Virus record (IMG/VR): IMGVR_UViG_3300027839_001529
Coordinates: 1 to 28,817 of that record
Length of the DNA stretch: 28,817 nt
Strand: one strand, 5' to 3'
Source of the DNA: a virus
How positions within the stretch are numbered: the stretch's first letter is position 1; every line of letters starts with the position of its first letter. The notes under the pieces are model-generated. The model was not told where the DNA came from and ran no database searches. It saw only the letters and a program-made list of their open reading frames with translations. Both the position numbers and the translations under genes were made by a program. Of the stretch, positions 1 to 25,400 are shown in pieces.

Positions 1-303
1 TAAATGTTGCATATTGTCAGTAGAATTATATGCTAAACTTTTGCGTCTATATAATGGATTCTTATATGCACGTTGTAATGCTCTACCAACATTATTCCAA
101 CGTTTACTGTATAAACCACAGAAAGCAATAAGTGTATCGTCCTCGGTTATAACATGAAAACAATCATAGTCCTTCATATCAGTTATTAACCCTTGGTAAT
201 TTTCAACGTTATGTAAATTTTGCTCTGATAATGTTTGTAATTCTTTTTCTATAATACCCAATATTACTGGATCTGGATTATTAATAATTTCATTAATATC
301 CAT
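1..303 (-). CDS. Partial gene, possible GNAT-like acyltransferase (C-terminus outside window)
   Basis: An open frame of 101 codons runs leftward from an ATG at 303 to the window edge without a stop, so only the N-terminal part is seen. It begins MDINEIINNPDPVILG. Residues 48-66 (CFHVITEDDTLIAFCGLY and following) look like the beta-hairpin strands of a GNAT acetyltransferase fold, followed by a basic stretch (RAYKNPLYRRK). The start overlaps the 3' end of the radical SAM gene by 11 bases (its stop is at 293-295), which implies translational coupling and supports this frame being real. The GNAT reading is a pattern impression from the N-terminal part only. No acetyl-CoA binding motif can be confirmed because the rest is missing. 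It could equally be an unrelated phage hypothetical protein. I am fairly sure it is a gene and unsure of its function. Confidence 0.5.
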   Translation of the reverse strand, partial: MDINEIINNPDPVILGIIEKELQTLSEQNLHNVENYQGLITDMKDYDCFHVITEDDTLIAFCGLYSKRWNNVGRALQRAYKNPLYRRKSLAYNSTDNMQHL

Positions 304-1192
304 ATTCGTTTAACTTTATATTTTCAAAAAATGGAGCACATTTCCAATCTTTAGTAATACGTCCTCTATATTCACTACCTGAATCAACTACACCGTCATC
401 GTCAACTTCCCAATCAACAAAACGTATTAGAACATTGTTATATTCATATATAGTTCCAATTAATCCATAGGTTCCATCAACAGATGTCCTACCACTATTT
501 TGTACTGGTTGATCCGAAGGCTGTATATCAAATTTTTGTTTAAAAAGATCAATAAGTTCATTAATATTATATGTAGTATCTCCATCCATATGCCTGCCAA
601 TTTTGCCAACACTTTTAAAACGTAATATAGGTTTGACTCTTGGTTTATAATTTGTTTCTTCCATTATATTAAAAAACAAATTAACTTGATCATCGATTGT
701 ATGTTCATTAATACCTTTTGCAATAATAGTTCCTGTATTAATAATCATATTTTCTAACATACAATTACGAAGTGCTCTAATTTTTAAATTTGCATATTTT
801 CCACTATCAATAATTTTATAAACATCATCATCGCCGGCGCCATTCATTGAAATTAAAATAAGGCGCAGGCCAGCATTTTTAATTTCCTTAACATAATCTC
901 TATGCCCTAATTTTAACCCATTGGTTGTTAGACTGCACTTATGCCCAATCTTTTTAATATTACGAATAATATCAAATAAATCTTCACGCATTGTTGGTTC
1001 TGCACCAATAAGTCTAACATATATTCTATTAGGTAAACGTTCTAAAAATGAATATAATTTGTTAGCGTCCATATCAGGAAATGCACGATTAGGGATATAA
1101 CAATTGGCACATTCCATATTACAACGGTGGGTGAGATCTGCAACTAATGCAGTAAAAATATTATCTTCTGGTTCTGTTTCAAAATACTTCAT
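293..1192 (-). CDS. Radical SAM domain protein
   Basis: This 299-residue protein has the radical SAM [4Fe-4S] cluster motif CX3CX2C at C24, C28 and C31 (RCNMECANCY). It also has a GGEP-type SAM-binding motif in the variant form GAEPT at 63-67, a TTNG strand at 89-92 and an ISMNG strand around 114-118. These are the features of a partial TIM barrel of the MoaA/PqqE/HpnH-like superfamily. Only isolated cysteines occur downstream (C144, C285), so there is no multi-cysteine SPASM or twitch domain for auxiliary clusters. The substrate cannot be told from sequence. It lies 53 bases downstream of an SbmA/BacA-like transporter and overlaps the next gene by 11 bases, so the three are probably co-transcribed. 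The Shine-Dalgarno is weak (an AAGG about 14 bases upstream). QueE-type deazaguanine synthesis is unlikely because the cysteine spacing is the canonical CX3CX2C. The family call is firm and the role is unknown. Confidence 0.9.
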   Translation of the reverse strand: MKYFETEPEDNIFTALVADLTHRCNMECANCYIPNRAFPDMDANKLYSFLERLPNRIYVRLIGAEPTMREDLFDIIRNIKKIGHKCSLTTNGLKLGHRDYVKEIKNAGLRLILISMNGAGDDDVYKIIDSGKYANLKIRALRNCMLENMIINTGTIIAKGINEHTIDDQVNLFFNIMEETNYKPRVKPILRFKSVGKIGRHMDGDTTYNINELIDLFKQKFDIQPSDQPVQNSGRTSVDGTYGLIGTIYEYNNVLIRFVDWEVDDDGVVDSGSEYRGRITKDWKCAPFFENIKLNEYGY

Positions 1193-1245: not shown

Positions 1246-2277
1246 TTAAGCAATTGCGTACTTATCGAGATTTTTTTCGAATTCGTGCAAACGTTTCCAT
1301 ATGCTACGAAGTTCAGTTATTGTAGTCCAATTATGTAAGAATAATGCAAATCCACCATGTACTTTACTAAACGCATTACTAACTTGTACTACCACACCTA
1401 ACAATATTGCGCCAGTAAACAAACCTGGACCGATTATTAAGTATGGAACAATGACCATAAATTGGTCATACATAATCATCCATGTATCAAAATAACCATA
1501 ATGTAAATACAGCCTATGATAGTTAAATTTTATTCCTGTAAACAAACTTAATATAGTTTCGGGCTGTGCGTAGTTGGCTTTATCATCTTCGCCAAGTACT
1601 AAATCTTTTCTAAACGCCGCTTCTACTCTCTGATTATTGTATTCAAGTCCTGGTAATTTCCAACCTACAAACCATGAGATTATTAAACCACCCAATGATA
1701 CCGTGAGAGCTACCCAAACTAATGACCCAGGTATTTCACTAAAGAATGGGATTTCAACAGCACTACTTAAACCCCATAATACTGGAATAAATGCTACTAA
1801 TGTCATAATAGCTCTAACAACTTGTAAACCCAATGACTCTACAATTCGCGCAAACCGATTACAGTCTTCTTGAATACGCTGGGATGCGCCTTCTATTTCT
1901 TCCTTAACTGTACGCCAACGCGGTATGTAATTAAACGTTATTGCTTCGCGCCATCGCAGTCCATATACACGAGTAAACCAACCTGTTAGTACTGCTAATA
2001 CAACATAAGGGAATGCTAACACAACAAAAGATGGGTCACCTTCGAAGCCATTAGTCCAATAAGAAAGACTAATTAACTTATCGTAAAATAACGCAATACC
2101 TTCTGCTGAATTATCTTTATATGTTCCTGATGTTTGTAGTAAATCATAAAAGCCGCCATACCACTTGTTTATGGCTACTGTTATCTGTACTTGTATCCAT
2201 AAAGAGATAGCAAGTAAACCACCTCCGCCCCAGGCCCATAAGGCCCATTGTTTACTTCTAAAAAATGCTTTTAACAT
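1246..2277 (-). CDS. SbmA/BacA-family peptide transporter
   Basis: This 343-residue integral membrane protein matches the SbmA/BacA family of proton-driven inner-membrane peptide importers. In E. coli SbmA takes up microcins and proline-rich peptides; in rhizobia BacA handles host peptides and is linked to very-long-chain lipid changes. Diagnostic stretches are NKWYGGFYDLLQ (37-48), GASQRIQED (130-138) and the long family signature at 206-232 containing KLPGLE, QRVEAAFRK and LGEDD. The C-terminal NWTTITELRSIWKRLHEFE is also typical. Hydrophobic segments fall near 11-35, 83-107, 153-174, 185-206 and 268-304. No ATP-binding domain is attached or adjacent. It is shorter than E. coli SbmA (406 residues) because the N-terminal part is absent, as I would expect for the shorter proteobacterial homologues. 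A strong AGGAGG at 2282-2287 overlaps the gp46 stop, so it is translated together with gp46. It is not a core T4-like gene, so it is probably host-acquired. Confidence 0.9.
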   Translation of the reverse strand: MLKAFFRSKQWALWAWGGGGLLAISLWIQVQITVAINKWYGGFYDLLQTSGTYKDNSAEGIALFYDKLISLSYWTNGFEGDPSFVVLAFPYVVLAVLTGWFTRVYGLRWREAITFNYIPRWRTVKEEIEGASQRIQEDCNRFARIVESLGLQVVRAIMTLVAFIPVLWGLSSAVEIPFFSEIPGSLVWVALTVSLGGLIISWFVGWKLPGLEYNNQRVEAAFRKDLVLGEDDKANYAQPETILSLFTGIKFNYHRLYLHYGYFDTWMIMYDQFMVIVPYLIIGPGLFTGAILLGVVVQVSNAFSKVHGGFALFLHNWTTITELRSIWKRLHEFEKNLDKYAIA

Positions 2278-2285
2278 TATGCCTC

Positions 2286-4049
2286 CTACTCGTCCTCTTT
2301 AATAAACGAAGTAAATCCATTTTCTTTGATAACATTTAAAACATTTGATACGCGACCTATGAGTTCTTCGCGATGACTAATTAAAAATATATTCTTTTTA
2401 CGTTCTCTTGTTACTTTTTTTAGTACTGAGAGCGCCGCCTCTACTCCTGCTGTATCTGTTCCGTTATCAATCAATTCGTCAATAAACATTAAATTAACAG
2501 GTTCGTTTAAATTTTCAAATACATCTCTAAATGCCCAACTTAAACTTAAAATAAGCCTGTTCCGCTCACCACGCGACAAATTATCAAAATCTAACTCTCT
2601 ACCTAACTCTGTAATCTCAACACTAAGGTCACTTAAAAACTGTACTTCGTGTGGCAACCCAATTTTAGTTAAGTAATAATCTAATCTATTATTTAAGTAA
2701 GATAAATTTTGGTCAATAATACTCTTTCGTATGAAACTGTCCTTATTAATTAGCAGTTTTAACAAAAACTCTTGATGATTTTTTAAATCTTCTAACTGTT
2801 CGGTTGTATCATATTTAATGCTTTGCAGGCCACCTGATTTTAATTCTTCAATTTGTTCAATATGTGGATTTTTAGTTTTTAATTCTTTCTCTAAATTATC
2901 TGCAAGTCTACTAACACTATCTTGGTGATCATATGCATCACCTTTACCATCATAAAATGTATCTGGCACATCACCAGGATCACCAATTTTATCTAACTTA
3001 TGTTGTAACTTTTTTATCAGTTTTAAGGTTTCTTTTAAATTAATATTTGTACTATCTAATTTTTCTGTTAATTCATTAATAATTTTTTCATGTGCTTTAT
3101 CGTGAATGTCTTGGCCACATGTAAAACACGTATGATTTTTAGCAATTTCTAAATTATCCGAAATTGTATCAATCATTGATAAATCATTATTCTCTTGTCG
3201 GCTAAGCAATGCCATTTCTCTATTATAACGTCGAATGTCTGTGCTTTTTTGATTATAAATTTCTAGATCTTTATGTGCTTGAATCTCTATATCAATATCA
3301 ATTTCTGATAACTTTGTAAGTGCATCTTTATATCGATTAATAGTTAATGTATGTTCATCATCCCATTTATTACTTCTGTTTTGTGCTTTTTCAATTTGTG
3401 CTTCTATCTTTTCATTAGCATCTTGCACAGACTTTATTCTATAATTTTCTTCAGTAATTGATTCTTTATTTTCTTTAATTTGTTCTTTAAGTATTTCTGC
3501 TTTTTTGCTTAGTTCGGTAATACCAAGAAGTTCCTCAATAAATTCTCGTTGATCATTTGCCCTCATATTAAGGAAAGGTTCGGTATATGTATTAAGTGCT
3601 ACAATATGCTTAAACATTATTGAGCTCATTTTAATAATATCTTCAATTATTTTTTGGGTTTGTCGAATTTCTCCCTGAGCTTCATCAATTTCATCATCTT
3701 CATTTGCTTTATTATCTACATAAAATTTAAATTTATTTGGGCGTCTACCTCTTTCAATTTTATATTCATGATCGCCGGCAGTAAATGTTAAACTAACAAC
3801 CATGTTTTTACCATTAGTTTTATTAATAAGGTTATCTCGACGAATATTTGTTATTGCTGTTCCAAATAACGCATAACTAATGGCATTAACTAATGTAGTT
3901 TTACCGGTACCATTACGAGAACCATCGCTACCTAGATCAATGTTATTACCTAATACTAGTGTTAATTGGTCTTGATCAAAAGTAACGGCCTGCGTTACTG
4001 CACCAACGCTCATAAAGTTTTTTAATGTAATATTTTTAATTAATAACAT
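2286..4049 (-). CDS. 46: Recombination endonuclease subunit gp46 (SbcC/Rad50-like ATPase)
   Basis: gp46 is the ATPase of the T4 Mre11/Rad50-type complex. With gp47 it resects DNA ends for recombination-dependent replication and degrades host DNA. The 587-residue protein has Walker A GSRNGTGKTT (43-52), a long coiled-coil middle with a zinc-hook CXXC (C308, C311; CFTCGQD), the ABC signature LSRGE (491-495), Walker B NLMFIDE (519-525, catalytic E525) and an H-loop LISHRE (546-551). Length and architecture match T4 gp46. It starts 7 bases after the gp47 stop, and an AGGA ribosome site (4055-4058) overlaps that stop codon, so the two subunits are translated in tandem. A transporter gene follows after 8 bases. 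The assignment is secure. Confidence 0.96.
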   Translation of the reverse strand: MLLIKNITLKNFMSVGAVTQAVTFDQDQLTLVLGNNIDLGSDGSRNGTGKTTLVNAISYALFGTAITNIRRDNLINKTNGKNMVVSLTFTAGDHEYKIERGRRPNKFKFYVDNKANEDDEIDEAQGEIRQTQKIIEDIIKMSSIMFKHIVALNTYTEPFLNMRANDQREFIEELLGITELSKKAEILKEQIKENKESITEENYRIKSVQDANEKIEAQIEKAQNRSNKWDDEHTLTINRYKDALTKLSEIDIDIEIQAHKDLEIYNQKSTDIRRYNREMALLSRQENNDLSMIDTISDNLEIAKNHTCFTCGQDIHDKAHEKIINELTEKLDSTNINLKETLKLIKKLQHKLDKIGDPGDVPDTFYDGKGDAYDHQDSVSRLADNLEKELKTKNPHIEQIEELKSGGLQSIKYDTTEQLEDLKNHQEFLLKLLINKDSFIRKSIIDQNLSYLNNRLDYYLTKIGLPHEVQFLSDLSVEITELGRELDFDNLSRGERNRLILSLSWAFRDVFENLNEPVNLMFIDELIDNGTDTAGVEAALSVLKKVTRERKKNIFLISHREELIGRVSNVLNVIKENGFTSFIKEDE

Positions 4050-4056
4050 ATAAATC

Positions 4057-5106
4057 CTATAACGAATTATAAATTGCTACGAGAATATTTGGGTCAAATG
4101 TATCACTTCGTATATCTTGTAAATGCGTTATAACTATTTGATCAACGCTTTTAAATTGGATCTCCCCAATGCTTTCACCATCCTCATGCTCGGTATCTTT
4201 TGACGGCATTAAAACAAATTCTCGTAATTTATAAATTTGTGTAAATAGTTCTTTTATAAAATTTGCTTCATCATATGTAATATTAGTATCAATATTAACA
4301 CGCAAATTTCCTTTTATACTTAAATATTTTTCTGGATCATTTAATAATGAAGTTAATTTAAGTGTTTTATATGTTGGCTGATCTGGCCAAGTAATAAACA
4401 CTGGATCTTTGCCCCATTCAAACCACATCATTCCTCTTTCATCATCCCAAGCATCAGCATAATTATGAGGGAAAGCATTGCCCATATAAACAATATTTCC
4501 TTTAGTTTGTCGCTTATGAAAATGGCCGCTAAAAACTAAATCAGGGTTTGAAAGATGGCTATCATTAATAGTACCATGATCTGGCATTTTAACCATAGCA
4601 TTCATATAAAAGTTAGGCAACTCAAAGTGCCCAAACATATATTTACATTTAATTTTTTGAATCTTTTTCCATTCATTGCTAACTAGCCATGGCACGATCG
4701 CCACGTCACCTTTAATGAATGGATCATTAATTTGAGTAAAATTTGGGAGTAATTTATTAAACTCGATACTGTTTAGTTCTCGAGTATCCCTGTAATAAAG
4801 ATCGTGATTACCATTAATAAAGTATACGTTATTAAATGCATTGTTTAGTAATGTCAATGCCTTTAACGAGTAATTTAGTGTGCTTACATTAAGACTGGCC
4901 CTATTATGATGCCAATCTCCTAAAAAAATACATGTCTCGCAGTTGTTTTCTTTTGCGACATTAATAAACCATTTAACAAAGTTTAAGCAATCTTCGTTAT
5001 GTAATTTACTATTATTTTTTAATCCAAAATGGATATCTGTAAAACATGCTACTCTATTAAATAATGGTTCATCCTGTACTTTCTTCTTCCGACTTGGTTT
5101 TTGCAA
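4057..5106 (-). CDS. 47: Recombination endonuclease subunit gp47 (SbcD/Mre11-like nuclease)
   Basis: gp47 is the metallophosphoesterase nuclease partner of gp46. The 349-residue protein shows every motif of the Mre11/SbcD active site: DIH (24-26), GDWHH (63-67), GNHD (99-102), GH (159-160) and GHFH (194-197), which bind two divalent metal ions. The start appears to be a TTG codon at 5106, preceded by AGAGGAAG, lying inside the 3' end of the gp55 gene (38-base overlap). There is no methionine between this point and the first motif, and starting later would remove the first beta strand. An unusual start codon and overlap may lower its expression relative to gp46. The family call is secure and the exact start is less so. 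Confidence 0.93.
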   Translation of the reverse strand: MQKPSRKKKVQDEPLFNRVACFTDIHFGLKNNSKLHNEDCLNFVKWFINVAKENNCETCIFLGDWHHNRASLNVSTLNYSLKALTLLNNAFNNVYFINGNHDLYYRDTRELNSIEFNKLLPNFTQINDPFIKGDVAIVPWLVSNEWKKIQKIKCKYMFGHFELPNFYMNAMVKMPDHGTINDSHLSNPDLVFSGHFHKRQTKGNIVYMGNAFPHNYADAWDDERGMMWFEWGKDPVFITWPDQPTYKTLKLTSLLNDPEKYLSIKGNLRVNIDTNITYDEANFIKELFTQIYKLREFVLMPSKDTEHEDGESIGEIQFKSVDQIVITHLQDIRSDTFDPNILVAIYNSL

Positions 5107-5944
5107 TTGCTTCCTCTGAGGCTTTCATCTTTTGCTCTCGTTGAAGTTTTTGCTCTTCCTCATGTTTTATTTGTCTAGTAAAACTTGGCATAGCACCCGC
5201 TTCTTGGAGCATATCATCTCGAATGTTTTGGTTACGTTTTTCAACGTTCAATACACGGGTAAAACTATTTGTAATAGCCGCCGTATAATAAGCAAAAGGA
5301 TTTTGTGACTTACTTTCGTCAAACTGTAATCCTATTTGAGACAATTGCAATAATGCTTGGCCACGCATTTCATCAACATAAGTATATCCACGCCAGTTAC
5401 TACGCATACTATAACGTTCAACTAATTTAAGATACATCATAGCCAATTCGTTTGTTACCTTCCCAGTTAATAAATCAAATCTTCCATTTTTTAGACCGCC
5501 CTTCCAATGGCTACGGCCAACTTCTTTTAATTCATCGCCAACAAACGCATAATGTTTAAAGGGAGGGAATGGAACTTTAGTACGCCTATCTGCTTCTGTT
5601 TTTGGATTTTTCTTACGTGTTGAATCTTCTGGAATATGATCATAAGTCATTACACGAAAAACTAATTCTTCTAATTGAACATCATTATCAGGATCAACAT
5701 GAATATTAGATGCTTTAACAACTTTTCCGTCTTCCTTCATTCGTGCTACAATACCATCTTTAATACGCTTAGCCTTTGCTAATCTTGCTAATACAATATT
5801 TTCCTCAATAATATCATCAACGCTTGGCAAAATAATATCAAAATCATTATAACTTTTATCAATATAATAACAGAAACTAGTTTTTGACTTGTGTATCTGC
5901 AGAAGCATGTCTTTATTATTTAAATATTTTTGTCTTCTTGCCAT
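5069..5944 (-). CDS. 55: Late-transcription sigma factor gp55-like, with large insertion
   Basis: In T4, gp55 is a minimal sigma factor that directs host RNA polymerase to TATAAATA late promoters. Here residues 6-19 (KYLNNKDMLLQIHK) match the gp55 N-terminus. Residues 164-235 match its sigma region 2 core: NWRGYTYVDEMRGQALLQL, then FDESKSQNPFAYYTAAITN and the basic helix after it. T4 gp55 is 185 residues. This protein is 291, mainly because of about 125 extra residues between the two matched blocks. The C-terminus is a highly charged Glu/Lys tail and lacks the hydrophobic clamp-binding end (DFLYE-like) that T4 gp55 uses to contact the sliding clamp. It is the first gene behind the sigma70 promoter, with an AGGAG site 6 bases before the ATG. 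It lies opposite the late promoter it should recognise. Confidence 0.82.
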   Translation of the reverse strand: MARRQKYLNNKDMLLQIHKSKTSFCYYIDKSYNDFDIILPSVDDIIEENIVLARLAKAKRIKDGIVARMKEDGKVVKASNIHVDPDNDVQLEELVFRVMTYDHIPEDSTRKKNPKTEADRRTKVPFPPFKHYAFVGDELKEVGRSHWKGGLKNGRFDLLTGKVTNELAMMYLKLVERYSMRSNWRGYTYVDEMRGQALLQLSQIGLQFDESKSQNPFAYYTAAITNSFTRVLNVEKRNQNIRDDMLQEAGAMPSFTRQIKHEEEQKLQREQKMKASEEAIAKTKSEEESTG

Positions 5945-5968: not shown

Positions 5969-5997
5969 ATTATAATATATTTTCCTTGCAAGGTCAA
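5969..5997 (-). promoter_or_regulatory. Sigma70-type early promoter for the gp55-gp47-gp46 operon
   Basis: On the minus strand TTGACC (5992-5997) and a perfect TATAAT (5969-5974) are separated by exactly 17 bases, a near-consensus host sigma70 promoter. The start codon of gp55 lies 25 bases past the -10 box, after an AGGAG ribosome site. It reads leftward. The rest of the 105-base gap (5945-6049) holds only this and the divergent late promoter. Confidence 0.82.
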
Positions 5998-6049: not shown

Positions 6050-6688
6050 ATGCGTATACTTGAATTGCTTGAAGCAACTACACAAAAAATCATTGCCATA
6101 TACCCTGGTAGATTCCAACCGTTCCATAAGGGACATGGTGCTGTATATAATTATCTTCGTAAACAATATGGAGGTAAGGGCGATGTGTTTATTTCAACTA
6201 GTGACGTTTCTGGCGGCGACAGACATCCAATGGGGTTTGCTGATAAAAAGCAACTTATGACCCTTGGTGGGGTCGACTCGAATGCAATTATACAAACAAA
6301 AAATCCATATAATGCTGTAGAAATTACAGGCAAATATGATCCAAAAAAGATTGTTGTCCTATACGTTGTAAGTGAAAAAGATATGGCCGAAGATCCTCGT
6401 TTTAGTTTTCCTGACTCGGGACAAAAAATGTTAAAAAGTGGAACAGGCCCAACACATTTTCAACGTTGGACTAATATGGAAGATGCTAAACCGTTTGCAG
6501 AACATAGTTACATTGGTACAGTACCAACATTTGAATTTCAAGTGTTAGGTAAACCAGCAACTAGCGCAAGCGAAATTAGAGCAAATTTTAAAACAGCAGA
6601 TGCCGAGGAACAAAAGGAAATGTTTATTGATTTATTTGGAAAATTTGATGAGAATGCATTCGACATGCTCAAAAAGAGGTTAGGATAA
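6050..6688 (+). CDS. HIGH-motif nucleotidyltransferase with probable capsid-targeting N-terminus
   Basis: This 212-residue protein belongs to the HIGH-motif nucleotidyltransferase superfamily (NMN adenylyltransferase and cytidylyltransferase relatives). It has GRFQPFHKGH at 20-29 and the C-terminal nucleotide-binding motif TSASEIR at 171-177, close to the ISxTxIR of the family. Substrate is not resolvable; NMN adenylyltransferase is the nearest pattern. The first residues, MRILELLEA, contain LLE|A (6-9), which fits the T4 prohead protease gp21 cleavage rule (I/L-x-E|) and resembles the capsid-targeting leaders of T4 Alt and internal proteins. The enzyme may therefore be packaged in the head and injected with the DNA (inference). 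It is the first gene behind a late promoter, with an AGGAG at 6036-6040. Its stop overlaps the next start as TAATG, so it is co-translated with baseplate genes. Confidence 0.82.
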   Translation: MRILELLEATTQKIIAIYPGRFQPFHKGHGAVYNYLRKQYGGKGDVFISTSDVSGGDRHPMGFADKKQLMTLGGVDSNAIIQTKNPYNAVEITGKYDPKKIVVLYVVSEKDMAEDPRFSFPDSGQKMLKSGTGPTHFQRWTNMEDAKPFAEHSYIGTVPTFEFQVLGKPATSASEIRANFKTADAEEQKEMFIDLFGKFDENAFDMLKKRLG

Positions 6689-13514: not shown

Positions 13515-16500
13515 ATGGCCCAAATACAACGACAAAATAACTTTTTCGCCGCAGAAGATTTTAGAACAATTTATCGAACATTCAGTGAAATTAACTTTAC
13601 TGCATATGATTTTGATACGATTAAACGTGCGATGATTGAATATTTACAACGGCATTTTCCAGAAGAATTTAATGACTTTATCGAAAGCAGTGAATTTATT
13701 GCTATCATTGAACTACTTGCATATATGGGCCAAACAATTGCATTTAGACAAGACTTAAATACTAGAGAAAACTTTTTAGATACTGCTGAACGCACCGAAA
13801 GTATTCGACGTTTAGCAAAAATGTTAAATTATACTCCAAAGAGAAATCTTCCAGCGGCCGGCGTCATAAAGATTTTCGCTGTATCAACCGACGAACAAAT
13901 TATTGATAGTGCAGGAAATGATTTATCAAATTTAGTAATAAATTGGAATGATCCAAATAATGTTGATTATTTAGAACAATTAACATTAATACTTAATGCG
14001 GCATTCCTAGCACAAAACCCATATGGTACTCCAGTTAAAAAAGGTACTGTAGATGCTGTTCCAATTGAAGTATATACTATTGATGCTATTAAAAATCTAG
14101 CAGTTACTTATTCTTTAAATGGGGATGTTAACGGTGCAAGTTTTCCGTTCGAAGTAGTTAATGCTACATTCGAAGACGGCATGTTTATGAAAGAAATAGA
14201 ACCAAATCCTGCAAATGGATTAAGTATGTTTTACATCAATGATGGCTTAGGTAATAACAGTAGTCAAACTGGATTCTTTATGTACCTAAAACAAGGTGCA
14301 TTATCATTCGATGATTTTGCATTAGATCTGCCACAACCAAATAGAGAAATCTTTATTAATAAAGAGAATATTAATAATTTTGATGTTTGGTGTCAAACTG
14401 TTGATTCAACCGGTACTATACTTGATAGTTGGACTAAAGTACCTAGCGTAAATGGTACTAGTGTAGTTTATAATAGTTTACTTAAAAATAAAAGAAAGAT
14501 TTTTGCAGTTACGTCGGCTGTTAATGATAAAATATCATTACGATTTGCAGATGGCTCATTTGGCGATGCACCGTCAGGAACTACACGAGTATGGTATAGG
14601 CAAAGTGCAAACCTGACAACAACGGCCCGTCCAGAAGATATTGGTTTACAAACAATTCAAGTACCTTACATAGGTAAAAACAATACCACTCATATCTTAA
14701 GCATAACACTTGGACTTGTTGGAAGTATTAGCAATAGTTTAGCAACTGAAACAAATGCTGAAATTAAAACAAATGCTCCTCAAGTATTTTATACACAGGA
14801 TCGAATGGTTAATGGTGAGGATTATAACACATATCCATTATATAAGAATTCAGACATTATTAAAATCAAAGCCATTAATAGAACACACGCAGGGCATAGT
14901 AGGTTTATTGACATTAATGATCCAACCGGCACTGTACAAAATTTAAATGTATTTGCCGAAGATGGGTTTATTTACAAAGACGAACAGAACATTCAAGTTG
15001 TTGCTGAACTTACATCTTCAACAACATCTAATACTATTATTCAAAGATATGTTCAACCTCAATTATCAGAGGACGACGTTATTAATTTTTATTATGATGT
15101 TTATCGAAAAGCAGTACACACAGCCGATGGCAGTTCAGCATGGCGATTCACTACCAGTGAAGTTATGCAATGGGTTACTTTACCATCGTCAACCGACGGT
15201 AATAAAGGGTATTTTGTAAAACAAGACGTAGCAAGTATTGCAACTAATTATCAAACTGTAGGTACAAGCGGCACAGGAAAAAATAAATTTATTGTTGAGA
15301 AATCATTACTAGAATTTCAAAACTCTGCAAGGTCTTTAACATTATTTGCTACAGTTGAAAATTTAACTGTATCAGGAAATCCAACAGGATTAACAACTGG
15401 ACCGATTGAATTAAATGTTTCTATACCAGATGGATATATTTTAACACGGGTTTATCCAAAATTTCGAAAATTATTTAACACCACCGAACAAACAGCAATT
15501 TTTACACAACTTGATCTTAAAAACACATTTGGTATTGGTTATGATTATAAAACTTCAGCATTTTATGTAATCAATCCTAATAACTTATCTACAGCAACAG
15601 AATTTAGTTTAGTTAATGCACAAGATAACACTAATACCAATAAAGATGATAGTTGGATTATTAAAATAGAATACGTTGAAGCAACATCACTTACTAGTGC
15701 AAACTTTTCTTTATCAACAAGAGGAATGCGTTATATTTTTGAAAGTGAAGAAGACGTTAGATTCTATTTTGACAATGCATTTAAAACAGTTGATGTAAAA
15801 ACAGGACAAGCAAAAAGAGATGTAATTTCTCTTTTAAAAATTAATAGTGATAAACGATCACAAATTGATAGAATTAATATTTTAACACCGGGTAATGGTT
15901 ATACATCATCACCTGTTGTTGAATTTCAACAGCCTGGCGAAATTGATCCGGCCACCGCAGTAGCACAACTTTCGTGGAACTTTCTTTCAGGTGGTATTGG
16001 CGGTTCAGAATATGCACCAATTGATCCTGCACTAACTTATTTAGATAGTGTTACAGTTGATTCGAACGGTATTCAAAATGAAATTATGATTAACAATTCC
16101 GGGGTATTAAATACTGCAACCGGCGGCCGCTCTCTTAGATTAAAAGCAAATTTATCTGAGTCAGCAACAGCATTGCCAACAATTGCAGATGATACTATAT
16201 CTGATATTGGAATTGAGTTATTTGCTTCGGGTGCAGGATATACATCACTACCTACAATAGCATTTCCTGCTCCGGCCGGCGGCGGCATAACTGCATTAGG
16301 ATATGCAACAATTGACACTGCATTAACAGGCGCTACAATAACCGACCAAGGCGGAGGCTATATTACAACACCCGATGTTACGGTTAATTCTCCTGGTTTT
16401 TCAGGTACAGTTTGGAATGTAAATCATGGATTAAATCAAAAGTATGTTAATTATGAAATTATTGTTACATCAGGAGGGAATGATTTAGCAATTGATCATA

Positions 16501-19463
16501 TTTACTCGCAGCCGACAGTTGAATTTATTGATGAGAATAATTTAAAAGTTACATGGGACTCAAATACAATTGGTTATATTGATATTATTAAGTCAAAATT
16601 TGTTAGCCCAGCACAATTAAGTACTAATGAATGGATTATTAATCATAACTTAGGAGAACAATATCCAAATATTGATGTTGTTTATACTGAGGGTTCGACA
16701 GATATAAGTGCCCAGGGCAGATTTGATCATCCGATTATTGAATATACTAGCACCACACAATGTAAAATCAAGTTTCCAGCCAATGTTACCAAAGCCGGTT
16801 ATGTTGTTGTAACACATAACCTTGGTAATAATGGTGCAACTGGCACAGGATTTAATTTTACTACTGGGACACCAGCAGGAATTTGGAACATAACACACAA
16901 TCTTGGTAAAAAGCATGTCAACGTTGATATTGCAAAACTAGGTAGTGCATTATTGATGGCAGGATTTGCAAGTCCAGATGCAACAAAATATTATAATATT
17001 AGAGGGCATTATGATGCTCCTACAATTACATTTGTTGACGATAATAACTTAACAATAACTTGGATTACACCAACTGCTGGTAAAGCAACAATTTCATGTG
17101 GCACGGCACTTGGTACACAAGCCATTGGCGTCGCACATATGGCAGTAGGTGATGACACAGGTACACCAACTCTCTGTGCGCCAGTAACAATAAACAACGG
17201 CGGCGCAGGATATACAGCAGGTAATGTTCTTACTGTAAGTGGTGGAGACTTCACTGGCGGTACAGCGGCAACAATAACAGTTAATACAGTTGACGGCGGC
17301 GGCGCAATTACTGGCGCAACATTGCTTGCAGGTGGTGATTATATCACAACTGCTGGTGGAATTGCTGTACCAGTATTAGGTGGCCTCGGCGCAACGTTCG
17401 ATCTTAATTGGAAAGTTATATCCATTGCATTTTCACCAAGTCCCCTTACTGGCGGCGGTGGTTATCAATCACTTCCAACAATAACTATCGGTGCGCCGCC
17501 TGCTGGCACAGCACCATGTGTATCGCGCCAAGCAACAGCCACCGCAACCCAAGAAGGTACAGTTACCGGTATAACTGTTACTAATTCTGGTTCGGGCTAT
17601 ACTAGTGTCGACCTACCAGCAATTATTACATTTACTGGAGGCGGATATTCAACAATTGCACAAGCACGAGCAACTACACTTAATAGTAGTATCACAGCAG
17701 TTACAATGATTAATACTGGTTCAGGATATACACAAGGAAGTCCTCCAACGGTAATATTTACTACAGCACCAATTGGCGGCACATCAACTACAGGAACAGC
17801 AACAGTTAATGCTACCGGTAATGTTACCGGTATTGTAATAGGAAACACAGGTAACGGATATTATTCACGGCCCTTGGTAACAATTTCGGGCGATGGTACA
17901 TTAGCAACTGCAACGTGTACTGTAAATGCATCTGGTATAATTGATACAATAACAATAACAGGCGGCGGCTCGGGATATACTTCGGCAACAGTTGCGTTCT
18001 CAGGAAATACAGGGATCAACGGCACCGGCACAGTAACAATAACAGGCGGCGCGGTTACTGCTGTAATAATAAACAACGGCGGCACTGGTTGGACACCTGC
18101 TCCAGTTTGCACAATTGCAAATAGCGGGTCGATTAGATCAGTTGATATTATTGATCCTGGATTTGGTTATACAGGACGTCCACTTATTTCATATGCCGAA
18201 ACAACCAATGGTACTGGTGCAAGCACTATTAATATCGATGGATTTGTTAGTCATGTTGAAATTACCGATCCAGGTAACGGTTATACTAGCGATACAACGG
18301 TATCATTTTCAACACCAACTGGAGATTCTCCGGTAACAACAATAGGAACACCGGTAATCAAATTAAATCAGAATTTAGAAACAGATATTAAATTTAATCT
18401 TTCAAAATTGTTAACGTATTCGGATGGTTATCAAGATCCTCGTAAAGTATTAGTTACATTTCACGACAATGATGGCGACGGTATTCCAGATGATCCTTTA
18501 AGTTTCGACAAGTTTGTTGATGTAGCAAGATATTTGTTTGAAGAAACTTATACGGACTTTGACGGATATACATATTATAAACTTTCACGAAACGTACTAC
18601 AAGCAGATACACAAGCAGAAGAAAATGTTATTATCCAAAATGCTTCTACATACGCTGGAAAATATATTTACAGAACAGACTTAAAAGTGTTTAAGAAAAT
18701 TGCTTCGGTAACGCCATATGGTTTAACTACATTAACAAATGCTACTGATGGAACTTTAAAACTATCAGCATTTATTGGAAGAAGCGGATATAATACACCA
18801 AAAGTTAATTCGTCTGATAGTACAATTGCTAATAGCACAGAAGAAAAAATATTCTTCCAATGGAAACATTATGCTCCAACCGATCAACGAGTTGATCCAA
18901 GCGTAACAAACTTAATAGATATCTTTATATTAACGAAAACATATTATGATAACGTTCTTTCGTGGAAGGCAAATAATAAAACACTAGTAGAATTTCCTGC
19001 TCCACCAACTAATACTGAGTTATCAATTTCGTTTAATAATTTAAATAACTATAAAAGTATTAGTGATCAAATTATTTACCGACCAGTGAAATTTAAATTA
19101 CTGTTCGGTTCAATGGCTATAACCGAACTACAAGCAACATTTAAAGTTATTAAAACACTTGGATCTGACATAAGTGACAACGAAGTAAAGAGCCAAGTTA
19201 TTGAAGCAATTAATAGATTCTTTTTACTTAATAATTGGGACATGGGAGAGAGTTTTTATTATACAGAACTTGCGGCATTTATACATCAATCAATGCCAAC
19301 AAATATTAGTAGTGTTGCATTAGTGCCAACAAACAGTGAAAGTAACTTTGGTAACCTATTCCAAGTTAAAGCAGAAGTTGACGAACTATTTTTACCAGTT
19401 GCAAAAGTAACTGATATCGACGTTGTTAAAGGATTTACAGAACAGAATTTAAAGATTAGATAA
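13515..19463 (+). CDS. 6: Baseplate wedge protein gp6, giant form with inserted repeats
   Basis: gp6 is the ring-forming wedge subunit of the inner baseplate (baseplate-J-like superfamily). The N-terminal 1-150 is typical (FFAAEDFRTIYRTFSEINFT, then FIAIIELLAYMGQTIAFRQD and LDTAERTESIRRLAKMLNY). The C-terminal 1830-1982 also fits, with SDNEVKSQVIEAINRFF and ESFYYTELAAFIHQ. T4 gp6 has 660 residues; this has 1982. Much of the excess is residues about 789-1612: some 12-13 GxGY repeats interrupted by three HNLG beta modules (16405-17105). After them a Ca-binding-like loop DNDGDGIPDD occurs near 18466-18495. The AGGAG before the stop of gp25 makes the start secure. The extra modules are probably surface-exposed, since the two core ends are kept. 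Confidence 0.9.
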   Translation: MAQIQRQNNFFAAEDFRTIYRTFSEINFTAYDFDTIKRAMIEYLQRHFPEEFNDFIESSEFIAIIELLAYMGQTIAFRQDLNTRENFLDTAERTESIRRLAKMLNYTPKRNLPAAGVIKIFAVSTDEQIIDSAGNDLSNLVINWNDPNNVDYLEQLTLILNAAFLAQNPYGTPVKKGTVDAVPIEVYTIDAIKNLAVTYSLNGDVNGASFPFEVVNATFEDGMFMKEIEPNPANGLSMFYINDGLGNNSSQTGFFMYLKQGALSFDDFALDLPQPNREIFINKENINNFDVWCQTVDSTGTILDSWTKVPSVNGTSVVYNSLLKNKRKIFAVTSAVNDKISLRFADGSFGDAPSGTTRVWYRQSANLTTTARPEDIGLQTIQVPYIGKNNTTHILSITLGLVGSISNSLATETNAEIKTNAPQVFYTQDRMVNGEDYNTYPLYKNSDIIKIKAINRTHAGHSRFIDINDPTGTVQNLNVFAEDGFIYKDEQNIQVVAELTSSTTSNTIIQRYVQPQLSEDDVINFYYDVYRKAVHTADGSSAWRFTTSEVMQWVTLPSSTDGNKGYFVKQDVASIATNYQTVGTSGTGKNKFIVEKSLLEFQNSARSLTLFATVENLTVSGNPTGLTTGPIELNVSIPDGYILTRVYPKFRKLFNTTEQTAIFTQLDLKNTFGIGYDYKTSAFYVINPNNLSTATEFSLVNAQDNTNTNKDDSWIIKIEYVEATSLTSANFSLSTRGMRYIFESEEDVRFYFDNAFKTVDVKTGQAKRDVISLLKINSDKRSQIDRINILTPGNGYTSSPVVEFQQPGEIDPATAVAQLSWNFLSGGIGGSEYAPIDPALTYLDSVTVDSNGIQNEIMINNSGVLNTATGGRSLRLKANLSESATALPTIADDTISDIGIELFASGAGYTSLPTIAFPAPAGGGITALGYATIDTALTGATITDQGGGYITTPDVTVNSPGFSGTVWNVNHGLNQKYVNYEIIVTSGGNDLAIDHIYSQPTVEFIDENNLKVTWDSNTIGYIDIIKSKFVSPAQLSTNEWIINHNLGEQYPNIDVVYTEGSTDISAQGRFDHPIIEYTSTTQCKIKFPANVTKAGYVVVTHNLGNNGATGTGFNFTTGTPAGIWNITHNLGKKHVNVDIAKLGSALLMAGFASPDATKYYNIRGHYDAPTITFVDDNNLTITWITPTAGKATISCGTALGTQAIGVAHMAVGDDTGTPTLCAPVTINNGGAGYTAGNVLTVSGGDFTGGTAATITVNTVDGGGAITGATLLAGGDYITTAGGIAVPVLGGLGATFDLNWKVISIAFSPSPLTGGGGYQSLPTITIGAPPAGTAPCVSRQATATATQEGTVTGITVTNSGSGYTSVDLPAIITFTGGGYSTIAQARATTLNSSITAVTMINTGSGYTQGSPPTVIFTTAPIGGTSTTGTATVNATGNVTGIVIGNTGNGYYSRPLVTISGDGTLATATCTVNASGIIDTITITGGGSGYTSATVAFSGNTGINGTGTVTITGGAVTAVIINNGGTGWTPAPVCTIANSGSIRSVDIIDPGFGYTGRPLISYAETTNGTGASTINIDGFVSHVEITDPGNGYTSDTTVSFSTPTGDSPVTTIGTPVIKLNQNLETDIKFNLSKLLTYSDGYQDPRKVLVTFHDNDGDGIPDDPLSFDKFVDVARYLFEETYTDFDGYTYYKLSRNVLQADTQAEENVIIQNASTYAGKYIYRTDLKVFKKIASVTPYGLTTLTNATDGTLKLSAFIGRSGYNTPKVNSSDSTIANSTEEKIFFQWKHYAPTDQRVDPSVTNLIDIFILTKTYYDNVLSWKANNKTLVEFPAPPTNTELSISFNNLNNYKSISDQIIYRPVKFKLLFGSMAITELQATFKVIKTLGSDISDNEVKSQVIEAINRFFLLNNWDMGESFYYTELAAFIHQSMPTNISSVALVPTNSESNFGNLFQVKAEVDELFLPVAKVTDIDVVKGFTEQNLKIR
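15880..18330 (+). repeat. GxGY beta-repeat array inside gp6, with embedded HNLG modules
   Basis: About a dozen degenerate copies of a 30-60 residue unit occur, of the pattern hxhxNxGxGYTxxPxhxhxGG. Clear copies are near 15883, 16226, 16345, 17196, 17450, 17580, 17708, 17840, 17957, 18070, 18150 and 18268. Examples are NSGSGYTS, NTGSGYTQ, NTGNGYYS, GGGSGYTS and DPGNGYTS. Such Gly-rich repeats suggest a beta-solenoid or beta-prism stack. DNA-level identity between copies is low, so the array is old or fast-evolving. Confidence 0.8.
16405..17105 (+). repeat. Triple HNLG beta module in gp6
   Basis: Three tandem units each open with W-x-(V/I)-x-H-(N/G)-L: VWNVNHGLNQK (16408), EWIINHNLGEQ (16630) and IWNITHNLGKK (16880). 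They continue with a polar strand, a (D/A)(H/A)P(T/I)I(T/E)F or Y strand, then NNLxITW and a closing AGxxxI strand. Each is about 60-75 residues, probably a small beta sandwich. The same three units in the same order occur in the next gene (27440-28115). Confidence 0.8.
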
Positions 19464-19464
19464 T

Positions 19465-22400
19465 ATGACAGAAAGAACATTTAAAAAATTACCACAGATA
19501 CTGCAAACTAATACCCTGGATAAATTTTTCCAGAGTACAATTGACCAATGGTTTTCAGATGATAACACATCAAAAGTAACTGGTTATATTGGAAGAAAAG
19601 ATCCAAAATCTTTCAAACCTGATCAAGATTTTTTCTTACCAGAAATTGATTATACTAGACAAAACTATCAATTAGAACCGGTATTAACAACAAAAGATAT
19701 TGACACAGCAGAAATTACAAATGCATTGTTTTATGATGATACGATTAAAACATTAGCAGTTGAAGGAAGCAATGTTGACAATCATAATAGATTATTTAAA
19801 TCTAAAGCATATTCGTGGGCACCTCCAATTGACATAGATAAATTTATTAACTATGAAAATTATTATTGGTACGAACCAGCAGAACTTATTAGATTTGATA
19901 TTATACAAGGCAGTACAAATCTTAATATTGTATCTGATATAATTGGCAAAACATCATTTACATCATATAATGAGGTAAAATTTACTAATGGATTAAAAGT
20001 TAGATTTACTGGTAGTAATATTTCTCCACAAGGATATCTTAATAAAGATTATATTGTAACAGGAGTTGGTACAAGTATCGATTTACTAGACATAACATCA
20101 CCAGTGCTTAATGATACACGGGCATATACACCAACATTAATAACTGATAAAATAGATTATATAACTATTGAACGAGGCGCTGTAGATACAAATCCATGGA
20201 GTCGCACAAATGGTTGGTACCATAAAGATGTATTATTAAGAGGTACTGGTATTTCGACCGGAGTTACATATAATGATATTGTTGATAATCCATGGGACAA
20301 AACAGGCGATGTCTGGGACGAAGTATCGTGGGATTCAACTGTTACACAAAAAGCAACAGAATTTGCATTAGATTCTGCTCGTAAGGCCGTTCGCCCAATT
20401 ATTGAATTTGATAATGATCTAGAACTATATAATTATGGTATCGAAAGTGCTGGCATTGTAAACTTTGCGGCCGATCAAACATATGACATTGTTCATAATG
20501 CATCTAATGTTACAATTGACGGAATTACTATTGCAACCGATGATACAATTATCTTTTTAAATTCAACTAACTTGTTAACTTTTATTAAATGGGACGGCGA
20601 GAAAATTGTTAATGCAACTTCGGGCGCAACCGAAGGACAATGGGATTCAAAGCCATGGGATATCGATTCCGGCTCTGGTGCCGATCAGTTAGGAAAAATT
20701 TATAGGGCTACAGTAACATCAGGTGTATGTACGCTTGTAGAAATAAAAAGTATTTTAACAAAACAAAAAATCCTTGTTACAGAGGGCGATGAACGAAAAG
20801 GTTTAGAATATCATTGGACTGGCTCCGATTGGATTTTAAGTCAAAGTAAGACTGCACAAAATGATGAGCCATTATTCCAATTATATGATTTAAATACAAT
20901 TAAGTTAGACGATATTGGCATATATCCGAGTAGTGATTTTACAGGAAACCCTATTTTTAGTTATAAAATGTCAACCGGTACTGCTGATGTGGTTATAGGT
21001 AAAGCATTAGAATACAAAGAATTTGGCCAGGTTGCTGATATTGTTTTCCAAAATAATTTAGAAGACACAACTACCTGGGGAACATCAAGTAAATATGACA
21101 TTTTTGGTTACAAATATTATAACCAATATAATTTAAACAGAGACATTGGTGATGTAACATTTATCGAAAATGTTGATTTAGTCGAAGATACATTAAGTTA
21201 TAATAATATACATGGAAACTTATCAAGTCAAATAGCAGAATTTGATGACATAGCATCATATGATGGTAAAAAAATTATTTTAATCAACAACGCAGAAAAT
21301 TATACTTCAGCAAGGTGGGATATTGACGAATGGGATGATGACACGCCTGCCGAAATAGCGTGGGCCGAGCAAGTAGATTTAGCATTACTTGAAGGCCAAA
21401 CAGGAATTTATACAATTAATATTGATACCTCAAACGGTATCAGCCGAGTATTATTAAACTTAACAACTACAATCAATCATGGTGATTATGTAACAATTAG
21501 TGATGGTATTCTTTACAGTGGTAAAGATATGACGTGGCAAACAGATGGCTGGACAGAAGTTAAATTTAAAATTCCGCCTGAAACACGGAAAATTGATAAT
21601 TTTAATAATAGTTGGAATCCTACTAATGTATTTAATAAGCAAAGGGTTATTGAAAAATACAAGTCAGATGTCGACGGTACACAAGAATATATTTTACAAA
21701 CTACACCTGTAACAAATAGTCCAGCAGATGTAATAGTTACAGTTGACGGTGATCTAGCAAAGCAATCAACAACATCGACAGCATATGATTATAATATTAG
21801 TGATAATACATTAACATTTACAACTAATAAAATATTAAGCAAAGACCAATTAATTGAAGTAAAATCATTTACTAAAGATGCTGTTAATCTCAATGATGTA
21901 CATTATTTTGAAATTCCGGATTCATTGGAAGCAAATCCCGATAATAATGATATAACCTCTGCAAGTTCGAGTGAACTACAAGAACATTTTACATCGATTA
22001 TTCAAAATCAATCTGATTTTTCTGGTATTGCATATGGAAATAATAATTATCGAGACAGCAAAAAAGATTTGAGTTTAGGATTAAAAATACTACAACATGA
22101 AAGTTCTATGTTACCTCTTATGGGGTTACTTGCTAATCATGAATCGTTTCATATTTTAGATTCGATAAGATTTAATCAACGACAATATGTAAATTTTAAA
22201 AATAAATTTTTACAAAGAGCAGAATTTTTAGTAACAAAGCATTTAACTACACCTATAGATGTATTTGTAGATACTATCCTACTGGATATGTATTCAACAA
22301 GAAGTAATTTAAAAGTATTTCAAGAAACAAAAGCATTTGCATTTGGAGATAACTTTATAAAAACAGATGTAACTGTACCATTTAATGCTGATCATATTGA

Positions 22401-25400
22401 TTTATCATCATTGTTATCAATCACAGGTGTTAATGATCGTACAAAAATTATTTACATATACAAAAAGAATAATATTGAAACTAATTATAGTTTACTAAAT
22501 CAAGTATCTGATTATAAATTTGCTACAACCATTACTAGTTCTGGTACTACAGTTACACGTATTATTTTTACAGATGGTGTACAAAAAGATGATAAAATTC
22601 AAATACGAGAATTTGAAAATATACAAAATTCTTTTGTTCCGTCAACACCAAGTATGTTGGGAATGTATCAAGTATATCGTCCAAAAGCCGAAGGTGATAA
22701 TACATATTTTAATGGCACTAAAAACTTTATAGTCGGCCATGATGGATCTCGTACTTTAATGTATGGTGATTACAAGGATGACTGTTTATTAGAACTTGAA
22801 AAAAGAATTTATAATGCTATTCCAGACAAATTTATTTCTGAGGATTATATGCCAGAACTAAATCAATACGAATATGTTCCAGGCAAATTTAGAGATAATG
22901 ATTATAGTTTATTTGAATATAATAGAATAATGGAACCAATATATCAACGTTGGAGTGTTGAAAACAAAGTTGATATATTTACACATCGTGACTATGATGG
23001 CAGTTCACCATTTACTTGGAATTATGCTACTGAAGCAGATAGAGACGGCAAAGAAGTACCCGGTGCATGGCGTGGAATTTATTTGTATTATTATGATACA
23101 CATAGACCACATACACACCCATGGGAGATGCTTGGTTTTGCTTCTAAACCATCGTGGTGGGATGCACAATATGGTACTACACTTGAAACCAACACTGCAT
23201 TATGGTCTGATTTAGAGAATGGTATTATTAGAGCAGGTGCTAGAGAAAACTTTACAGATAGTAGTTACTTAACTAATAACCCATTTAAGCGAACAGGTTT
23301 AAGTAATTATATTCCCGTTGATGGATATGGTACACTTAAAGATCCAGTACAATCAGGCATTTTTGGCGATCCAGCAGTACAAATTACTGCATCAGGATAT
23401 ACTGTTCCATATGGCCCACATAGAGATGACCCATGGCGCAACGGCGATTATGGGCCTGCAGAATTTAGTATAAGATTAAACCCTGTATGGCCATTTATTA
23501 TTAATAAATTAGCATTCTTAACTCGCCCAGCAGAATGGGCAACTAAGAATTGGGATACATTAAATTTAAAAAGGGCCAAAGCACAAAAGGCACAAATTTT
23601 ATTTGAGGATACAAGTAAAAGAAAGAAAATTAGTGAACTAAGATTTCATCAATTAGGACTTACTGATACTAGCACAACAAAAGAATATGTTTTTGGATAT
23701 CAGCAATGGATTTATAATTTATTATTAGATCAAGGAATAAGTTATGATGTTGGCTTTGCTAATGACATAAAAACAGCCGGAGTAAATCTTGGTTATAAAA
23801 CAGGTGGCTTTATTAGTAATAATAACATTACTATACAAGCAGATTCGTATAGCACTACACGGGATTCGGATAGTATTTTTATTCCAATAGAAGATAAATC
23901 TGTTGCAATTTATAATAGTGCCAGCGAAGGCGTTAGATCATATAGTGGAGTAATTATCGAAGTTACAAGTACGGGATATAAAGTATTTGGATATGATCCA
24001 TTTAATCCCGTATTTAGAATTATACCAAGTGTTACTACTGGCCCTAGCAATTCAGTTGATACTGAAGAAGTTCGAGTAGAAGAATATACTACACATTATG
24101 ATGTAGTTGCCGAAGTTGAATACGGATTTGAATTTAGCAATGTACAAGAGGTGTTTGATTTCTTAATTAGTTATCAACGATATTTAACTGCGGTTGGATT
24201 TATATTTGATGAGTGGGACATTGATGCAGAAACTATTTTAGATTGGAAACACGCTGGTAAAGAATTTATATTTTGGGCTCAATTAACAACCTGGGATGAT
24301 GGAGCGTTTATTGCATTAAGTCCATCAGCACATAAAATTAAATTAGATTCAACATCACTTGGACGCATTAGTAGCATCAACGAAATTATTAATGGAACTT
24401 ATTCTATTCTTGATAAAAATGGTGGCTATATTCCTGCTTCTAATTTAAATATTAAAAGAGAAGCAGATACATTTTCAGTTAGCACAGTATCTGGAATAGG
24501 TATCTATGGATTAAAAGTTAATACGTTCAAATCTGAACACGTTATGTTTTTTGAAAACAAAACAGGATTTAATGATTTAATTTATGACCCAGTGTTTCGA
24601 TTACGCCAAGAAAAATTAAAACTTAGTGCTGTTAAAACAAATGACTGGACCGGTAAAGTTGAGTCTGGTGGATATATTATTCAAAATGATACTATTCTTC
24701 CAAACTTTAATACTGTTGCTAATGATTATAGAAAATTTCATAACACTACTGATGCTGTTGTATCTAAAGCACAACGAGATTCGGCCAGACATTTAACAGG
24801 ATATCAACCAAGAGATTATTTAACAAACATTACTGGCAATGATGATATTTCGTATGAATTTTATAAAGGATTTATTCGACAAAAAGGATCTAACCAAAGT
24901 ATTAAAAGTCTTCTTCGTAATACAAATATTACTAATGAAGATGCACTTACATTATATGAAGAGTTTGCACTTAAACTAAGTGACTTTGGTGCAACACGAA
25001 TTACCACAGATAATGAAATATTAATTAAGGCAACGGATGTTAAGGTACAGAATCCATTGATTGAATTCACTTATGAAAGTACATCGGTTGATTCATTAAA
25101 TGACGATGTTATACAACTTAACCATACAAACGATACGCGGTGGTTACGAAAGCCAAAAACACCAGTAATGGAAGTTTGGCCAAAGAATACTATTGGTACT
25201 ACAGAAATAACTGCATTACCAACTGCGGGATATGTACATAAAGATGATATTACATATCGAGCATATGACAATACTACATTAGCAGGTTTAAATACTAATG
25301 TTAATGCAACAACTGAACCAACAGTAGGTTCAACTGCACATATTGCAAGAGGCCCAAATAATGAATTCTCTGTACATAAATTAGTTGATAGCGGATTAAA

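Follow-up and report, generated by a model that had tools for sequence, protein, structure and literature searches.

A stretch of viral DNA of 28,817 nt (IMG/VR record IMGVR_UViG_3300027839_001529, positions 1 to 28,817; hereafter the window) encodes a transporter of the SbmA_BacA family, best read as a working proton-coupled importer that has been recruited repeatedly as an auxiliary gene and most likely feeds peptides to the infected cell, with a probability of about 0.5. Family, fold, a full glutamate ladder, purifying selection, repeated acquisition and optional presence were all observed, and the repeated uptake of such genes suggests that importing something, probably peptides, aids infection. 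Nutritional peptide import is favoured because the characterised proton-driven members of the family share peptide uptake.

The importer gene was found as a complete open reading frame (ORF) where the original prediction, which gave no strand, had placed it; it lies on the minus strand, starts with ATG (2275-2277) and contains no internal stops. The gene order on this strand is gp55, gp47, gp46, importer and radical SAM, with the following features:

5969..5997, minus strand: sigma-70-like promoter TTGACC-17-TATAAT (11/12, consensus match only), upstream of gp55
5069..5944, minus strand: gp55 late-transcription sigma factor, first gene of the operon (PHROG E 2.2e-87)
4057..5106, minus strand: gp47, SbcD-like recombination endonuclease subunit (PHROG E 2.5e-66)
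2286..4049, minus strand: gp46, SbcC-like recombination endonuclease subunit, upstream of the importer (PHROG E 7e-97)
2282..2287, minus strand: AGGAGG Shine-Dalgarno, 4 nt from the importer ATG and overlapping the gp46 TAG stop (2286-2288), read from the sequence
1246..2277, minus strand: importer ORF, SbmA_BacA-family (PRK12369 type), six-helix, predicted proton-coupled, 343 aa
1215..1238, minus strand: 9-bp hairpin without a T tract between the importer and radical SAM genes (z -3.45), a possible end or processing signal
293..1192, minus strand: radical SAM protein, downstream of the importer

The AGGAGG overlaps the gp46 stop as had been claimed, and translational coupling to gp46 was upheld. 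Early expression with gp46 and gp47, also proposed originally, is plausible for the window, where the promoter at 5997-5969 was the sole 11/12 sigma-70-like match in the region; it does not extend to all carriers, because in one phage group the importer stands with the tail-fibre genes, a late class. The radical SAM gene was considered as a functional partner and rejected, its adjacency being confined to the window lineage and not kept in other loci; a 48% identical relative occurs in another carrier locus (L003, 7158-8129), distant from the importer there.

The isolated phages closest to the window by gp46 protein are the giant Pseudomonas PA5oct group (52.6%), followed by Sinorhizobium phage Phosso and Agrobacterium phage Atu_ph07; at the inspected Phosso locus, the importer was absent after gp46. 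The window phage is large and T4-like, and probably marine since the bacterial relatives of its importer, from which the habitat is deduced, are mostly marine. Elsewhere in the window, a gene divergent from the gp55 operon (6050-6688) encodes a protein with an N-terminal YPGRFQPFHKGH nucleotidyltransferase-like motif, and two very long ORFs (13515-28815; 1982 aa and >3117 aa, the second open at the window end) with glycine-rich repeats probably encode structural proteins.

The family assignment was confirmed by an HMM search, in which the protein matched PF05992 with 391.7 bits (cut-off 24; E 3.8e-117, excluding a chance match) over profile positions 2-314 of 315, and all four motifs cited in the original prediction (GASQRIQED, KLPGLE, QRVEAAFRK and LGEDD) were found. 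A strict SbmA/BacA identity, which had also been proposed, did not hold: the SbmA equivalog (NF008306) was failed with 309.7 bits against a cut-off of 492 and the N-terminal region of SbmA is missing, while the PRK12369 equivalog (NF009036, 'putative transporter') was passed with 481.8 bits against a cut-off of 385 (NCBIfam). As the importer is not a strict SbmA/BacA, we infer peptide transport from the family. It resembles the proteobacterial PRK12369 proteins, with bacterial members 70-82% identical, and differs from them in being phage-borne instead of residing on a cellular chromosome.

The AlphaFold2 model (pLDDT 86.5) contained six long helical hairpin elements, and its best fold match in the PDB was SbmA (9g3g, TMq 0.83; Foldseek). 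The comparison with SbmA that had been suggested as a check gave a matching fold, with Z 29.0 and 2.0 Å over 318 residues, and the best solved relatives by sequence were also SbmA chains (E 2e-70, identity about 43%). Importer residue 7 falls opposite SbmA residue 79 in the alignment, leaving about 72 N-terminal residues missing, and every helix of the model is accounted for without TM0a/TM0b, the two extra peripheral helices, which are probably absent. No ABC ATPase domain was matched in a Pfam search of the 343-aa importer, which ends after TM6. It thus shows the ABC-type-IV-like TM1-6 fold without a nucleotide-binding domain expected of SLiPT (SbmA-like proton-driven transporters), and is filed there by mechanism (it works like these transporters) and not as a strict SbmA/BacA.

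In SbmA, protons move along a ladder of six glutamates, and losing any one of them abolishes or severely impairs transport, whereas the ABC-type YddA is without the equivalents of E203 and E287 (PMC13316013). None of the proton-coupling glutamates whose loss was to count against the original prediction is missing: the SbmA ladder (E193, E203, E269, E276, E287 and E378) is conserved in the window as E137, E147, E212, E219, E230 and E322, and does not vary across 32 phage copies; the same holds for the gate residues Q189 and R280 (SbmA numbering). Proton coupling is therefore the better reading of the sequence, because the ladder includes the E203 and E287 equivalents that YddA does not have and there is no ATPase domain. 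The importer accordingly shares with E. coli SbmA and rhizobial BacA the Pfam family, the TM1-6 fold, the ladder, Q189/R280 and the lack of an ATPase, and shares a homologous TM domain with the ABC relatives BclA, Rv1819c and YddA, though without the C-terminal nucleotide-binding domain of BclA and Rv1819c. Besides the probable absence of TM0a/TM0b, it differs from SbmA in extra periplasmic-loop residues and in two tyrosines: the central-gate Tyr368 is Leu in the window and Leu or Val in phage copies, and Tyr285 is replaced by Leu. Because of these replacements, the substrate range may differ from that of SbmA; Tyr368 is missing in bacterial relatives too.

A scan of IMG/VR viral contigs recovered 87 relatives, of which 80 loci were kept at 70-100% identity. 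Close relatives thus ride as single-gene cargo in no fewer than 80 IMG/VR loci, spread over several unrelated slots; one locus, L001, extends the window and is identical to it across the shared genes. Based on neighbour clustering and on Pfam/PHROG matches of representative neighbours, the importer was found after gp46 (window, L038, L049/L050), between the gp43 DNA polymerase and uvsX with gp41 downstream (other phages), adjoining nrdAB (L017, L020), near a class II ribonucleotide reductase (RNR; L045, L047, L048), adjoining a gp59-type helicase loader (L037, L042, L076), upstream of a gp32-type single-stranded DNA-binding protein (L071-L073), and amid tail-fibre genes (L021-L036). The recombination-operon setting put forward originally thus stands for the window, and is one of several homes instead of a defining one; since the same gene sits in several other slots, function cannot be read from position.

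The carrier phages are T4-like wherever record length allows judging, a T4-type gp23 capsid gene being present in 6/6 carrier records of at least 100 kb. Permuted (two-piece) tmRNAs, already known in marine phages (PMC9004378), were observed in six carrier loci (L006, 4785-5166; L017, 11235-11553; L026, 767-965; L041, 5825-6023; L042, 3348-3591; L072, 11193-11453), and those of L026, L042 and L072 match the alphaproteobacterial model as well, which hints at alphaproteobacterial hosts for several carrier phages.

Within these genomes the importer is optional cargo and lies outside the T4 core, as had been proposed. Among 37 complete gp43-uvsX slots, six contained it and 31 did not, and in 80 close gp46 loci it occurred within the next genes only once (L169, same contig as L049). 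The cleanest case is a single-gene presence/absence pair: in L164 (same contig as L018) the importer exactly fills the interval separating an HtrA-like gene from a small gene, and it is absent from the near relatives L165 and L166. The slot survey and this plus/minus pair establish the optional status. An upstream gene (c1, weak N6_N4_Mtase match) was rejected as a linked partner, as it also resides in the gp43-uvsX slot without the importer.

The three gp46-slot importers sit on different tree branches, and their identities disagree with those of the adjacent gp46 (window versus L049, 73% for gp46 and 74% for the importer; window versus L038, 68% and 83-84%), which points to separate arrivals or replacements. 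The nearest cellular relatives, 70-82% identical, belong to proteobacterial groups that are mostly marine (SAR86, SAR324, SUP05/Arenicellales, Kiloniella, MarineAlpha and Pelagibacterales). A single origin of the phage copies was rejected (AU p = 9e-6) and the tree requires three or more label changes, suggesting that T4-like phages gained the importer from proteobacteria more than once; the count does not fix direction, and some of these changes may be phage-to-bacterium moves. The median dN/dS was 0.077 over 61 pairs, and the protein has therefore been kept functional. One contig (L044) was rejected as proof of recent host-to-phage transfer: its positions 1-1178 are 98.6% identical at the nucleotide level to a bacterial MAG locus (L093), the identity stops inside the importer about 40 bases before the stop codon, a gp23 gene lies downstream, and the contig is likely an assembly chimera. 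Gene neighbourhoods of the bacterial relatives gave no consistent substrate clue.

Under the favoured reading, T4-like phages would have taken the importer from proteobacteria repeatedly and kept it as optional single-gene cargo, usually in replication/recombination or nucleotide-metabolism operons. In the window phage it would be co-transcribed and translationally coupled with gp46, presumably early in infection, and would enter the host inner membrane as a putative active homodimer, SbmA-like (SLiPT) and lacking an ATPase domain. The proton gradient would then drive periplasmic solutes inward, most likely short peptides, from which phage synthesis may draw amino acids and nitrogen.

In five loci types the importer has an HtrA-like protease with a hydrophobic N-terminal segment nearby, compared with 0/148 control loci; as the control phages were not matched in habitat to the carriers, this association is suggestive only. 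Among whole records the excess is small (4/20 versus 1/26), which weakens the link, and one lineage retains the protease without the importer. These HtrA/DegP-like proteases, identified by a trypsin domain, occur in unrelated phage contexts (L002, 5128-6231; L018, 6849-7994, with a PDZ detected; L045, 10311-11432; L068, 7543-8643; L072, 2833-3990). It is a long shot that some phages use a two-part scavenging pathway, in which the exported protease would cut periplasmic proteins and the SbmA-type importer would take up the fragments; if true, the host envelope proteome would be turned into amino acids for virions.

The main rival to peptide nutrition, rather unlikely in itself, is that the importer takes up cobalamin or another cofactor for a phage-encoded, adenosylcobalamin-dependent class II RNR. 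The next distinct PDB relative after SbmA in the Foldseek search was indeed the cobalamin importer Rv1819c, although that protein is ATP-driven. RTPR-type class II RNR matches were found in 13/28 carrier records (4/6 of those of at least 100 kb), in L045, L047 and L048 a few genes away from the importer, and class I RNR in only 2/28; however, just 1/13 passed the RTPR model cut-off, and RNR was scored in carriers alone, so that class II might just be frequent among marine phages in general. Moreover, class I NrdAB directly adjoins the importer in two carriers, and neither RNR class was detected in two large ones (199.8 and 107.5 kb).

Protection of the envelope comes third and is also improbable: the importer would shield the infected cell by clearing membrane-active or misfolded periplasmic peptides until lysis, in the way that BacA guards rhizobia against host peptides, and SbmA/BacA and BclA proteins do promote bacterial survival of antimicrobial peptides (PMC12003926). 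The HtrA-like protease of the five loci types, being of a periplasmic quality-control enzyme type, would fit such a role. Apart from the protease, however, no envelope-stress gene recurs beside the importer, and import by SbmA also sensitises cells to peptides having intracellular targets. That the gene is functionless host DNA, carried passively in phage genomes or contaminating viral contigs, is highly improbable and already contradicted for the carrier group as a whole: the chimeric-looking L044 and mislabelled bacterial DNA among GenBank 'phage' matches speak for it, but dN/dS is about 0.08, the ladder is intact, the importer is flanked by core phage genes in many contigs and all records of at least 100 kb have the gp23 capsid gene.

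Among 50,697 GenBank phage records, no authentic isolated phage carrying the importer was found. Three strong 'phage' SbmA matches were not counted as carriers: two lie on an Acinetobacter 'phage' contig (CAKLQH020000002.1, L082) with chromosomal genes around sbmA, and the third (OR850887.1, L083; Salmonella) is a fragment without verification or annotation, its SbmA region being bacterial. A BFVD fold search returned only distant ABC transporters (E 1e-4), no report of a phage SbmA/SLiPT gene was found in the literature searched, and phages go unmentioned in a 2025 survey of the SbmA/BacA family (PMC12003926). Both this type of transporter and uptake genes on phages were known before; what was not found in GenBank phages, BFVD or the searched literature is the two together. 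The closest parallel among phage-carried nutrient-uptake genes is pstS of cyanobacterial viruses (PMC3429862); the importer resembles it as an uptake gene of host origin that marine phages retain as cargo, and differs in belonging to another transporter family and probably serving another nutrient.

Phages are already known to carry uptake genes for phosphate and a handful of further nutrients. If the favoured reading is true, organic peptides (or a vitamin) would join what phages make their hosts import, and infection could alter the sensitivity of a cell to peptide antibiotics. The phage copies also offer a starting point for the substrate of the PRK12369 family, which occurs in relatives of SAR11, SAR86 and SUP05.
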